Origin: an uncultured Bacteroidales bacterium
GTDB taxonomy: Bacteria; Bacteroidota; Bacteroidia; Bacteroidales; Muribaculaceae
Direction of reading: 5' to 3'
Assembly: GCA_945829225.1 (NCBI GenBank)
Contig: CALZTY010000025.1
Span: 1 to 33,685, forward strand
Length of the DNA stretch: 33,685 bases
In this document: in pieces, positions 25,812-30,319 of the stretch
Position numbering within the stretch: position 1 is the stretch's first letter
Layout of the letters: every line of letters begins with the position of its first letter
The notes under the pieces: model-generated
Databases searched by the model: none
The model's input: the letters and a program-made list of their open reading frames with translations, nothing else
Told to the model about the DNA's origin: nothing
Position numbers and translations under genes: made by a program

Positions 25812-25842
25812 TTGATAAGGAGCCGTCGATGTCGTATTTTTG
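25812..25842 (+). promoter_or_regulatory. Promoter for the A-T-C / MATE unit, inside a terminator
   Basis: TTG at 25812-25814, 20-base spacer, and TATTTTTG at 25835-25842. The -7 box is the loop of the terminator hairpin, so the start site would fall near 25849 in its 3' arm, giving a leader of about 50 bases. A weaker second match (TTG 25864-25866, GAACTTTG 25887-25894) would give a nearly leaderless transcript. Confidence 0.7.
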
Positions 25843-25861
25843 CATCGTCGGCTCTTTTTTT
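25820..25861 (+). terminator. Intrinsic terminator of the pilus locus
   Basis: GAGCCGTCGATG (25820-25831) pairs with CATCGTCGGCTC (25843-25854), with a single T-T mismatch and an 11-base loop. Seven T residues follow (25855-25861). It lies 27 bases beyond the tip gene stop. Confidence 0.88.
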
Positions 25862-25898
25862 GCTTGATTTTTTCAATAAAAAATGTGAACTTTGTCGC

Positions 25899-28760
25899 AT
25901 GGAAAGGCGAGAAACAGTAATAGAGCGATTGAGGCGCGTGACGAGCAAGGGGAGTGACCGCCTTGCCGTTGCAGATGAGCGCCATCATCTCACATATAGA
26001 GAGTTGGAATCGCTTACCGATGGCGTGGCACGGCAGTTGCTTACCATTGTCAAGCCGGGCGAGGTAGTAGCCGTCATTGCCGACTGCTCCATCACCGCGG
26101 TGGTCGCCCCGTTGGCGATAATGAAGGCTCGATGTGCCTTTGCGCCGATATATGCCGAGTGGCGACGCCCACAGTTTGAGCATATCTGTCGCGATGCACG
26201 GATTCGAGTGGCTATTGTTGATGACGGACTCGTCGACTTAGTGCCCGAAACGGTTAAAACCATTACGTTAAGTGAAATACTTGATTATATTGATAATCAG
26301 GTGGATGAATTGCAGACCCCGTCGCTTGAAGACCTTGCCTTGATAGTCTACACCTCGGGCAGTAGCGGACAACCCAAGGGATGTATGCTGTCGCATCGCA
26401 ATTTGGCTCTCCAAGCCACAAACTACGGCTTTACTGCCGAGGATATCACCGCCTCGTTCATGCCGCACAACTCTGTTGCTTTTATCCACGATATATTCGG
26501 CGCTCTGTGCGTAGGGGCAAGCATCCGGATTATGTCTCGTGATGCCAAGGATACTCCGGCGACTATAGCCGAGTTTATCAACGTGAAAAGAGCAACGACG
26601 ATAATTCTGCCTGGGCGTGTCGCAGCCGAGATGTCGGCAATGGAGTTTCCAACGTTGAGGAAGATGATAGGGGTAGGGGAACATTGGCAACCGCGACAAA
26701 TCCCGCGAGGCTACGAACTGTACAACGGTTACGGGGCATCGGAAATTTGTGGCGGGGCGTTGCGCTATTGCATCACCGAGTTGCAGTCGACTATCCCGGT
26801 GGGCACGGCGCTGCCCAATGTGGGTGTTGAGATAGTTGATGAGGACCTGCAGCCATGTGACGATGGACAACTCGCCATAGTCGGTGATGCCGTGGGCGAG
26901 GGCTATCTTAATCTCCCGAAACTGACCGCCGAGCACTTCATCACCCTGCGAGGCGAGCGTGTGTATCTCACCGGCGACCGTGCGCGTCGCCTTGCCGATG
27001 GCAATATCGTGATTGCCGGGCGCATCGACCGCACCGTCAAGGTCAGTGGTTGGCGAGTAGACCTCCAAGCCGTCGAAGTCGCCATGTCGACTCAGAGAGA
27101 TGTGGAAGCGGCGGCGGTTCGAGCCATACAATTCGGGCAAGATACGGTGTTGTGCGGCTACTACCAAGGCGCGATACAACCCGAAGCGTTGCGCGACGAG
27201 TTGCGACAGTCGCTACCGTCGTATATGGTGCCCACGCACATCATGCGACTTGAGCAGTTGCCATTAACCGCTTCAGGGAAGATTGATTATCCCAATTTGC
27301 CGGCACCGCAATGGCATACTCACAGCGATGATTTGCCCGACAATCTGCGGCAATTGTTAGCCATAGCACGGAGCGTGGTCTCGGCTCCGATTGCCGATAT
27401 ACACACTGACCTCGTGTCGCTGGGCTTGTCGTCGTTGACGGCATTGGAGTTGAGTGTAGCCATCGAGGAGCAGATGGGCTTACAGATTACCGCAGCGTCG
27501 ATTTTGGCTTTTCCCACGGTGGCTCAAATCAGCGAGAACGCCAGGCTTACGCTCAATATTTTGCGTAAATTTCCTGTCCAAGATACATATCCGTTGATGG
27601 CAGACCAGCGCCGTATGGTCGAAGGTGCGATCGAGCATCCCGATGACCCCAAGAATGTGATGACCTATGCTGTCGAGGTGGACAATGTGACGTCAAAGCA
27701 GTTGGAAGATGCTATCAATAAGGTGTTTGACAATCATGAATACCTTTGCGTGCAATTCAGTCGACGCGATGGCAAATTTGTTCAGCGCTGTGGCACCGAG
27801 CGCCCGCCGATTAAAGTGATACGACTGTCCAAGCCATGCTCAGAGGCGGATATGCTCGCCGAAGCGAGTCCTTGGGCTATTCTTGATGCTCCGCTCACGC
27901 GTTTTGCTATCTTTGAGGCTGAAAATCAGCCTATACGACTTCTTGTTACCACTATGCATGCCGTGAGCGATGCCGCCTCATTTCATATTCTTATCAATGA
28001 GATAGTCGATGCTTGCAACGGGAAGGAATTGCTACCGGAAATCATTGATGCTTATGACCTTACGTTGTGCGAGCAGCGGTTTGAGGCATCTGAGGAGGGA
28101 GCGCGTTGTCGCAAATACTTTGAAGATATCTGCGCCGCCGGCTATTTGGTAGATAGGCTTAATGATGAGAAACTGCCCGCCGAGACTCCCGGAGTAGCGA
28201 CGTTCGAGGTTGATACAGAGGTGGTTGAGGGACTTGCTCACCGCCTTGCCGTCACGCCCAACGCTTTGATGACTACCACGATGATGCAAGCTATAGGTGA
28301 TCTCACCGGGCACGACAAATTGGTAATAAGCACCTTCTCCAACCGCCGCAATTTGATGGCAGTGAGCCGCACACAGGGTATGTTGCTGCGAACGCTACCC
28401 ATTGTGTGGGAGCGCTCGACACTCGCTCCGCCGGAGGGAGTACGGCAAATGCAACAATTTTTCCGCCGGCTCATGTTGTGTGACCTCTATCCGTTCTGCA
28501 ATATCGCCGACGAGATAGGCTTCGAGATGAAATTTCTCTATATATATCAAGAGGAATTGGCAACGATGACACCGCCCGCGGGGTGGCATCCTATCGCACT
28601 TGCCGCGCCCGACGATGCCACGGCGATATGTTGTGTACAGGTGGTGCCGGGATGCGCTACTTACCGAATATTAATTGAATACAATGGCAGGACATATCGT
28701 CGTGCCGATATTGAGCGACTAATCGCCAAGTGGCGCTCCAATATAGAAATAATGCTATGA
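25899..28760 (+). CDS. Single-module NRPS-like protein: adenylation, carrier, condensation
   Basis: A 953-residue cytosolic protein. The adenylation domain (about 1-470) has YTSGSSGQPKG (151-161), NGYGASE (276-282), the TGD loop (358-360), the hinge GRIDRTVKVSGWR (374-386) and the catalytic Lys461 in ASGKIDY, so it should activate an acid as its adenylate. The carrier domain (about 480-550) has LGLSSL with Ser512 for phosphopantetheine. The condensation domain (about 558-953) has MHAVSDA with His687 and Asp691. The residue at the Asp235 position of PheA is Val193, so the substrate may lack an alpha-amino group. No thioesterase or reductase is fused; the C domain could release the product onto a free amine or alcohol. 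ATG 25899 is chosen by domain start; the last codon overlaps the MATE gene. Confidence 0.88.
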   Translation: MERRETVIERLRRVTSKGSDRLAVADERHHLTYRELESLTDGVARQLLTIVKPGEVVAVIADCSITAVVAPLAIMKARCAFAPIYAEWRRPQFEHICRDARIRVAIVDDGLVDLVPETVKTITLSEILDYIDNQVDELQTPSLEDLALIVYTSGSSGQPKGCMLSHRNLALQATNYGFTAEDITASFMPHNSVAFIHDIFGALCVGASIRIMSRDAKDTPATIAEFINVKRATTIILPGRVAAEMSAMEFPTLRKMIGVGEHWQPRQIPRGYELYNGYGASEICGGALRYCITELQSTIPVGTALPNVGVEIVDEDLQPCDDGQLAIVGDAVGEGYLNLPKLTAEHFITLRGERVYLTGDRARRLADGNIVIAGRIDRTVKVSGWRVDLQAVEVAMSTQRDVEAAAVRAIQFGQDTVLCGYYQGAIQPEALRDELRQSLPSYMVPTHIMRLEQLPLTASGKIDYPNLPAPQWHTHSDDLPDNLRQLLAIARSVVSAPIADIHTDLVSLGLSSLTALELSVAIEEQMGLQITAASILAFPTVAQISENARLTLNILRKFPVQDTYPLMADQRRMVEGAIEHPDDPKNVMTYAVEVDNVTSKQLEDAINKVFDNHEYLCVQFSRRDGKFVQRCGTERPPIKVIRLSKPCSEADMLAEASPWAILDAPLTRFAIFEAENQPIRLLVTTMHAVSDAASFHILINEIVDACNGKELLPEIIDAYDLTLCEQRFEASEEGARCRKYFEDICAAGYLVDRLNDEKLPAETPGVATFEVDTEVVEGLAHRLAVTPNALMTTTMMQAIGDLTGHDKLVISTFSNRRNLMAVSRTQGMLLRTLPIVWERSTLAPPEGVRQMQQFFRRLMLCDLYPFCNIADEIGFEMKFLYIYQEELATMTPPAGWHPIALAAPDDATAICCVQVVPGCATYRILIEYNGRTYRRADIERLIAKWRSNIEIML

Positions 28761-30271
28761 ACAGGTCTCTGATTTCCATATCCTTCCATCGCTACCTTAT
28801 TCCCACGCTCATCTCGTATATGGTTGGCTCGATCAATGGGGTGGTGGATGCCGCCATAGTGGGCAATATTATCGGCGAGCAAGGATTGTCGGTGGTAAAT
28901 ATGTGTATGCCGCTCAATGTGCTGATTATTACGTTGATGACTGTGTGCTTTGTGGGCGCTTCGATAATCACTTCGCGCTCAATCGCCGCCGATGAGCGTG
29001 AGACTACGACAGGGGTATTCACTACGGCGACGGTGCTCACATTGGCACTGTCATTGGTAGTGTGCGTCGCGGGCTTGCTCAATATCGATGTTATAGCAGC
29101 AGTGTTGTGTCATCAACCCGAGTTGCGCCCCGATGTGACGGAGTATGCACGAGTGATGATTATCGCGCTGCCCGTGATGACTATGTGTGGCGGACTTGCG
29201 ACAATGGTCAAGACCGACAGTTCGCCACGCTTAGTGACTACGGCGGTGATTATTGCCGGGAGTATCAACACTGTGCTCGACTATGTGTTTATCAAGTACT
29301 TACATACCGGAGTGGTAGGCTCGGCATGGGCTGGCGCCACGGGATTTGCCGTGTCGTTGTGTGTCTGTTGTATCCACTTCACATTCAAGCGCTCGCACTT
29401 GCGATTCAGCCGCGTGATGCCCCCGGCAGGGTGGCGCGAGATGCTGATGCTCGGCTTGCCGATGACCATCCAGCAATTGTGCAATGCCGCTCGAGCCACG
29501 GTAATCAATGGCATGGTTGAGGACACAATCGGCACTCATGGCGAGGCAATCTTGATGCTGTTTATAAATTTTGCAGTCATCGGCGGTGTGTTTTTCAGCG
29601 GTGTCAACCAGGTGATGCAGATTATCAACAGTTCGACTATCGGCTGCAGCGACCGCCGCGGTTATGCTATTGCCCTGCGTCATGCCGTACTGTATATCGG
29701 TGTCGGAGTGGGTGTGGTGGCTACACTTATTATGCTATTCCCACTCAAAGTGGCAGCGATATTCGGCTTTGACTCCGAGGCGGATATTGCTATGAATATA
29801 CGTCAATTGGCGCCTACTTTGGTGCTTATGGCGGCAAATTTCACCTTGATGAGCATCTATCAGATTACGGGACGCACGCGCATTGCAATTGTAATCTCGT
29901 TGATGCAGACGCTTATGGCACTGCCTGTTATGGTGATGATTTTGAGAGTTTCACCTGAAAATTTCTGTTTGTCATTCCCGATATCCGAGGGGATAACCTT
30001 GGCTGTAATCCTTGCTATGCACCGTTCCGTATCACCCAAGTGGACTGTGGAAAGCGAGAATACTTATCGCTTGACAGCCAATGCGATACCGGACGACCTA
30101 CCGCAATATATTGTAGATGAAAGCCGGGAAGCGGCAGGATGGAAACTCCTCGAGGCGACAGTGCGCACTCATAGCGATGGTAGCGTCACAACGCTCATCC
30201 GTCATAATGGCAGCCACACCGAGGATTACACCTATGCCATCAACCTCCACCAGCGCGTACTACGGCAGTGA
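28757..30271 (+). CDS. MATE-family efflux transporter with C-terminal extension
   Basis: A 504-residue membrane protein with about twelve helices in two pseudo-repeats, beginning MNRSLISISFHRYLIPTLIS. Features of the family include the VDAAIVGNIIG segment in helix 1 (about residues 26-36). MATE transporters export cationic drugs or natural products with H+ or Na+ exchange. The start ATG overlaps the A-T-C stop (ATGA), so the two are probably translated together and the exporter likely secretes the A-T-C product; this is inferred from context. After the last helix a 79-residue soluble tail (426-504) follows that is not part of standard MATE proteins. Confidence 0.9.
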   Translation: MNRSLISISFHRYLIPTLISYMVGSINGVVDAAIVGNIIGEQGLSVVNMCMPLNVLIITLMTVCFVGASIITSRSIAADERETTTGVFTTATVLTLALSLVVCVAGLLNIDVIAAVLCHQPELRPDVTEYARVMIIALPVMTMCGGLATMVKTDSSPRLVTTAVIIAGSINTVLDYVFIKYLHTGVVGSAWAGATGFAVSLCVCCIHFTFKRSHLRFSRVMPPAGWREMLMLGLPMTIQQLCNAARATVINGMVEDTIGTHGEAILMLFINFAVIGGVFFSGVNQVMQIINSSTIGCSDRRGYAIALRHAVLYIGVGVGVVATLIMLFPLKVAAIFGFDSEADIAMNIRQLAPTLVLMAANFTLMSIYQITGRTRIAIVISLMQTLMALPVMVMILRVSPENFCLSFPISEGITLAVILAMHRSVSPKWTVESENTYRLTANAIPDDLPQYIVDESREAAGWKLLEATVRTHSDGSVTTLIRHNGSHTEDYTYAINLHQRVLRQ

Positions 30272-30289: not shown

Positions 30290-30319
30290 TTGATATGTAC
30301 GGAATTGTTTGTACCTTTG
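30290..30319 (+). promoter_or_regulatory. Promoter for the dCMP deaminase operon
   Basis: TTG at 30290-30292, 19-base spacer, and TACCTTTG at 30312-30319 match the consensus. The leader is about 13 bases to ATG 30339. It lies 18 bases after the MATE stop, and no terminator is visible between them. Confidence 0.75.

Follow-up and report, generated by a model that had tools for sequence, protein, structure and literature searches.

How might a nonribosomal peptide synthetase (NRPS) protein that consists of one adenylation (A), one carrier (T), and one condensation (C) domain, in that order, release a product when no release domain follows? The question arises from a gene pair at positions 25899 to 30271 of contig CALZTY010000025.1 (assembly GCA_945829225.1), from an uncultured Bacteroidales bacterium of the family Muribaculaceae. 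The whole 33,685-nucleotide stretch that we analyzed is referred to below as the window. A first-pass annotation had described the pair as a make-and-export unit, in which an A-T-C protein is joined to a MATE exporter. The explanation that we favor, tentatively, is a minimal two-gene NRPS unit that would activate a carboxylic acid other than an amino acid, couple it to an acceptor not encoded in the operon, and export the product.

Anatomy of the gene pair

The features of the pair are the following.
25899..28760, + strand: gene of the A-T-C protein, 953 amino acids (aa), stop codon included (open reading frame [ORF], Pfam)
28757..30271, + strand: gene of the MATE exporter, 504 aa, coding to 30268, joined to the A-T-C gene by an ATGA overlap (ORF, Pfam)
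25941..27281, + strand: A domain, residues 15 to 461, with code V-A-H-I-I-V-G-G-G-K, Val193 at position 235, and A5 motif YGASE with Ala280 for Pro (Pfam, alignments)
27351..27536, + strand: T domain, with the codon of Ser512 at 27432-27434 (Pfam, alignment)
27576..28757, + strand: C domain, the last of the A-T-C protein, with motif MHAVSDA, His687 (27957-27959), and Asp691 (27969-27971) (Pfam, alignment)

The first-pass annotation held up in its outline of the pair. Both frames are open and in the order given: the A-T-C gene starts with ATG at 25899 and codes to 28757, where an ATGA is shared by its end and the start of the MATE gene. Pfam located AMP-binding at residues 15 to 337 (7e-54), AMP-binding_C at 392 to 461, PP-binding at 485 to 546, and Condensation at 560 to 877 (1.6e-24). 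The A, T, and C domains scored above their curated cutoffs (183.5, 42.9, and 86.9 bits versus 29.9, 20.8, and 30.6), as did MatE in the second protein (74.3 bits versus 24.9). Ser512, His687, and Asp691 are where they had been placed and are common to the A-T-C protein and its nearest relative found. The statement that all catalytic A motifs are present has to be narrowed, since, although the ATP-binding motif is intact and the A10 lysine is kept, the substrate-binding Asp235 and the A5 proline are both replaced. That the frame is open over 953 codons and retains the catalytic Lys, Ser, His, and Asp is an argument for selection on the A-T-C gene. Codon usage, for which the A-T-C gene had the lowest adaptation value of the 16 window genes and the MATE gene tied with MTHFS for the next, was a weak signal from which no conclusion was drawn.

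The A-T-C protein ends approximately where the C domains of its relatives end in the alignment, and neither Pfam, NCBIfam, nor a C-domain search of the genome revealed a thioesterase, a reductase, or a second module in or after it. Its best NCBIfam match, the aureusimine synthetase AusA, aligns with the A-T-C part over residues 3 to 712. However, the window protein scores 259 bits against a cutoff of 2500 and has neither the second module nor the reductase of AusA, which is organized as A-T-C-A-T-R (R, reductase). The best solved-structure sequence match is the linear gramicidin synthetase LgrA, which aligns through its A1-T1-C2 part over residues 18 to 837; LgrA is the longer of the two proteins and has both the Asp and the A5 Pro in its A domain. 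The parts of the window protein are ordinary, and their minimal arrangement is unusual.

In the unit that we propose, a phosphopantetheinyl transferase (PPTase) would add the phosphopantetheine arm to the T domain, and the A domain would activate a carboxylic acid and load it on Ser512. The C domain, through His687, would then move the acyl group to a nucleophile from outside the operon, for which a soluble amine or amino acid is the likeliest candidate. This transfer would form an amide (or ester) bond and free the product for export by the MATE protein; a thioesterase or a reductase would not be needed because condensation itself would release the product. The presence of a PPTase elsewhere in the genome had been named in the first-pass annotation as a check on the pair, and we found one match above the cutoff (PF01648), whose action on this T domain is putative.

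NRPS link of the MATE lineage and rarity of the pair

The window MATE belongs to an NRPS-linked lineage. At an E value of ≤1e-26, it was matched in 70 of 386 genomes of the family, its own included. Outside its own genome, an NRPS match shared the contig with 64 of 71 MATE places and was at most 7.9 kb away. Of the other seven places, six belong to genomes that have an NRPS elsewhere, and the seventh belongs to a genome (G697) without an NRPS among the matches listed. Overall, 68 of the 69 other MATE genomes hold an NRPS among the matches listed, the NRPS list (a lower bound, from the places listed) coming from a draw of 397 family genomes and the MATE list from a different draw of 386. For 12 genomes with an NRPS, either no MATE reached this E value or the genome was not part of the 386-genome draw. 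This lineage, the PPTase gene, and the lack of a release domain or further module support the idea of a make-and-export unit.

NRPS clusters were present in at least 80 of the 397 family genomes besides that of the window, and those next to MATE relatives are long and multimodular. By Pfam, the NRPSs of loci L035 and L036 have the architecture C-A-T-C-A-T-R, and that of L034, with no MATE within the fetched stretch, has A-T-C-A-T-C-A-T-R; the other long NRPSs were classed by length and by their A and C matches. The family clusters with a MATE (e.g., L036, L039, and L079) resemble the window pair in their A and C families and in having a related MATE beside the NRPS, and the first A domains of L039, L079, and L080 also lack Asp235 and the A5 proline. 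They differ in having two or three modules, a HATPase domain on both long MATEs scanned, and a terminal reductase in all three NRPSs scanned (L034, L035, and L036; L039, L079, and L080 were outside that scan). They also differ in their surroundings, which among those scanned included SpoIIE phosphatases (2), PPTases (2), an alginate-export-like porin (1), and MATEs with HATPase_c_2 (2).

Some details of these clusters stand apart from the window pair. The MATEs at L039:13637-15412 and L079:3700-5523, beside three-module NRPSs, carry HATPase_c_2 at their C terminus, and the L079 cluster also has a SpoIIE phosphatase gene, a possible tie of export to a partner-switching regulator. ORFs of ∼100 aa beside the NRPSs at L143:11552-11854 and L144:17669-17971 look by eye like anti-sigma-factor antagonists. 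A 448-aa protein beside the three-module NRPS of L079 (L079:14490-15833) has a weak AMP-binding match, below the cutoff. The window MATE ends in a tail of ∼80 aa after its membrane region, and the MATE fragment of genome G099 also has a tail; as a decayed HATPase domain the window tail gave no significant match (hmmsearch E values of 0.12 and 0.16 for two targets, hhalign P value of 0.046) and is a lead only.

Within the genus, the pair was found in 1 of 49 genomes. The A-T-C protein was matched in 20 of them at an E value of ≤1e-30, with T and C covered only in its own genome; the other 19 (e.g., L085 to L092) have an A domain alone, in frames of 480 to 528 aa with 28 to 31% identity to the window A domain. 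At ≤1e-60, matches occurred in 19 of 198 family genomes, own included. A two-sequence profile run on the 397 family genomes returned A+T+C-spanning frames mostly of 2,200 to 3,000 aa among the matches listed, and only those of the window genome (G000) and of G099 were near 1,000 aa. Two overlapping draws from the order (393 and 324 genomes) yielded no other standalone full-length A-T-C protein near 1,000 aa, the order frames of 835 to 1,268 aa being matched over A and T only. An 865-aa frame of G781 was matched over the A domain only. Shorter frames in G665, G755, and G719 proved to be pieces of long NRPSs that reach contig ends; in G719 (L188:3851-8901), two overlapping frames make up the NRPS, one of 885 aa and truncated at the contig edge, the other of 799 aa and bearing the reductase. 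A scan of named relatives gave four loci with 24 to 29% identity, which encode multimodular NRPSs or, in L026, a 505-aa protein of ligase size.

The first-pass annotation had made conservation of the two genes together a point on which its proposal could fail. The genus count speaks against such conservation, and the matches listed in the 397 family genomes contain one candidate for a second pair, in G099, and no more than a candidate. The G099 A-T-C frame, with 28% identity to the window protein, is cut by the end of contig C35, and its 235-aa MATE-related frame starts near the end of contig C43 and has an in-frame TGA among the ten terminal bases of that contig, which may reflect the assembly edge or a broken gene. 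In unrooted trees with long branches, the C domains of the window and G099 split off together (100/100), as did the MATE fragment with the window MATE (99/97, with only 41% of columns filled). In the stretch [GD]-M-x-x-[NK]-T-L, both C domains carry Arg and seven others shown carry Asn or Lys.

The genes downstream of the pair are kept across the genus. An S41 protease was matched in 46 of 48 genus genomes, and a dCMP deaminase adjoins it in seven of eight genus loci examined (L105 to L112), having escaped the ORF filter in L106. Upstream of the deaminase, none of these eight loci shows an A-T-C gene or a MATE gene, with L108 ending too early to tell. The slot upstream of the deaminase-protease pair varies among them, L109 and L110 sharing a neighbor with 45% identity. 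Since the downstream genes are kept while no A-T-C or MATE gene is seen there and the neighbors vary, the gene pair is an accessory insertion of this species, carried by a contig that otherwise resembles the genus.

Alternatively, the pair could be the decaying remains of an NRPS-MATE cluster of the family that was once larger, its product no longer being made. The long multimodular relatives, with a reductase at the end of all three scanned by Pfam, the degenerate C motif, and the single occurrence in the genus would fit a remnant, as would the stop near the contig edge in the G099 MATE fragment and a MATE tail that may recall the HATPase fused to other MATEs, a match that is not significant. 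On the other hand, the open frame is intact, catalytic residues are kept in A, T, and C, and the ATGA overlap is clean. The grouping of the C domain with that of G099 further suggests that this type is probably not a fresh truncation, with certainty reduced by the long branches. We regard decay as unlikely, while ranking it first among the alternatives.

A search of the open literature returned nothing on a MATE-linked Bacteroidales NRPS or on a standalone A-T-C pair, which does not establish absence from print; Muribaculaceae and NRPSs are treated jointly in PMC9007364 and PMC8241843, the available portions of which contain nothing on this pair.

Acceptor and substrate of the A-T-C protein

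The A-T-C order is already known from AmbB of Pseudomonas aeruginosa, which donates its acyl group to carrier T1 of AmbE and requires the His of its C domain (PMC8968710, PMC4357302). The first-pass annotation had held that the A-T-C order implies a free acceptor; because AmbB hands its acyl group to the AmbE carrier (PMC8968710), this is not a rule. The two systems, as AmbB is described in these sources, share the A-T-C order in one protein, the catalytic His in the C domain, and a transporter gene nearby, which is the putative LysE-type AmbA in the amb cluster. They differ in that AmbB activates L-Ala and has AmbE as its recipient, whereas the window protein lacks Asp235, has a MATE exporter, and has no second NRPS that we could find.

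We searched the genome of the window (G000:C25:1-33685) for possible partners. In this 2.27-Mb assembly (85 contigs, 99.87% complete), we found no C domain besides that of the A-T-C protein, and no partner NRPS module on which it could act in trans. Three carrier domains were found, namely, the window T domain, one on contig C27, which we presume to be AcpP, and one on C54; four AMP-binding matches were also present. The small carrier on C54 (L175:1-3175) adjoins genes that by eye are KASIII-like, SDR-like, and MBOAT-like, a possible acyl-modification operon. An A-T-C protein that acts as AmbB does, giving its acyl group to the carrier on C54 or C27 for other enzymes to finish and release, would have a precedent and two carriers at hand. 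Against it stand the lack of another C domain, the neighbors of the C54 carrier, which point to another pathway, and the lack of a separate carrier gene adjoining the pair, and so we judge transfer to another carrier to be rather improbable. Since the searches of the genome yielded no further C domain and just two further carriers, a free soluble molecule is the better guess for the acceptor, and release onto it would be the simplest reading.

The A domain carries Val193 in place of Asp235 (phmmer and MAFFT alignments) and Ala280 in place of the A5 proline, and its ten-residue code was read by alignment to LgrA, the last residue being the A10 Lys. We aligned 45 A domains (that of the window, that of LgrA, and 43 from loci fetched). 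The A10 lysine is present in all of them, and Asp235 and the A5 Pro covary, with both present in 39, neither in 5 (window, G099, and the first A domains of L039, L079, and L080), and position 235 cut off in 1. StsA, described as the only solved α-keto-acid A domain, has Ile for Asp235 and Met for the conserved Pro, and changing P483 of LgrA to Met or Ala gave a small but significant gain in α-keto-acid activity (PMC11253843). By the numbering of our alignment, P483 is the A5 proline. Hydroxy-acid A domains are reported to have Ala or Gly for Asp235 (PMC11253843).

The window A domain thus has both features of the StsA type as given in that work, which rest on one solved example: a hydrophobic residue for Asp235 and a nonproline in A5. 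It lacks Asp235, the mark of α-amino-acid A domains, to which McyG is a reported exception. Its substrate is therefore probably a carboxylic acid other than an ordinary α-amino acid. As a best guess, and not firmly, we put an α-keto acid first, since the same double change is reported in StsA, followed by an α-hydroxy or arylpropanoic acid. The ranking is not firm because McyG, listed as Phe-activating, also has Val at position 235 (PMC11253843). By this precedent, the A domain could activate an amino acid through an unusual pocket and give a simple dipeptide or aminoacyl amide; we find this quite unlikely, since the A5 proline is also lost, as in StsA, and is kept in 39 of 39 Asp-bearing domains aligned. 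The idea that a lipid or surface polymer receives the acyl group and is then flipped by the MATE-like protein, for which one could invoke a match of the A domain to DltA-type ligases (NCBIfam, far below the cutoff) and the superfamily that MATEs share with flippases, is very improbable given that the two-gene unit has no polymer or lipid enzymes and that the C domain is of the NRPS type, with LgrA as the best solved-structure match.

The minimal unit itself faces several observations that weigh against it. The C motif MHAVSDA, compared with HHxxxDG, keeps the second His and the Asp and has the first His and the Gly replaced, so that there is real doubt whether the domain would be active in condensation. 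The pair is rare, and its sole candidate relative, in G099, is incomplete at contig ends. The Val of McyG tells against a non-amino-acid substrate, and the A-T-C protein has no ketoreductase domain, unlike the keto-acid module described in PMC11355689. Finally, a split in a first tree set the five A domains without Asp235 apart from the rest (97/86), but with the code columns removed (19 rows) they were not shown as one clade (p-AU of 0.298, not rejected). An origin of the window A domain from the L039/L079/L080 type, for which the lost split would have spoken, is not claimed. The fuller form of our proposal, a one-module NRPS that would start with an α-keto (or other non-amino) acid, be released onto a soluble amine or amino acid, and yield an exported α-ketoacyl amide, is possible, if somewhat unlikely.

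Locus borders and significance

The following features, predicted from folding or motif matches, lie on either side of the gene pair.
25817..25862, + strand: hairpin (25817-25857) followed by a T-run, terminator-like, between a fimbrillin gene and the ATG of the A-T-C gene (fold; putative function)
25835-25842, + strand: TAnnTTTG box inside the hairpin (motif match; putative function)
30312..30319, + strand: TAnnTTTG box (TACCTTTG) upstream of the dCMP-deaminase gene, a possible start of the next transcription unit (motif match; putative function)

A promoter of its own, as the first-pass annotation had given the pair, is plausible in view of the box at 25835 and of the hairpin upstream (−24.5 kcal/mol, fold z of −5.5); this box and that at 30312 flank the two genes. 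However, such boxes are frequent in the window (20 observed versus 12.3 expected by chance). A consensus scan of the window did not list the hairpin at 25817 among its terminators and found neither promoters (3 versus 5.8 in shuffles) nor terminators (1 versus 4.0) above shuffled sequence, so that the operon borders are putative. Because the T-run hairpin holds a TAnnTTTG box, terminator and promoter may overlap at 25817-25862.

What is new here is an NRPS-linked MATE lineage, a genome in which searches gave a single C domain, a double change in the A domain, and the rarity of the unit. The link between MATEs and NRPSs offers a way into the exporters that belong to this family's NRPS clusters, and the substrate signature makes a simple test worthwhile. 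If active, the pair would amount to a complete NRPS pathway of very small size, with two genes for biosynthesis and export. It would then also reveal whether a C domain at the end of the protein can free its product onto a soluble acceptor in a genome with no other NRPS found.

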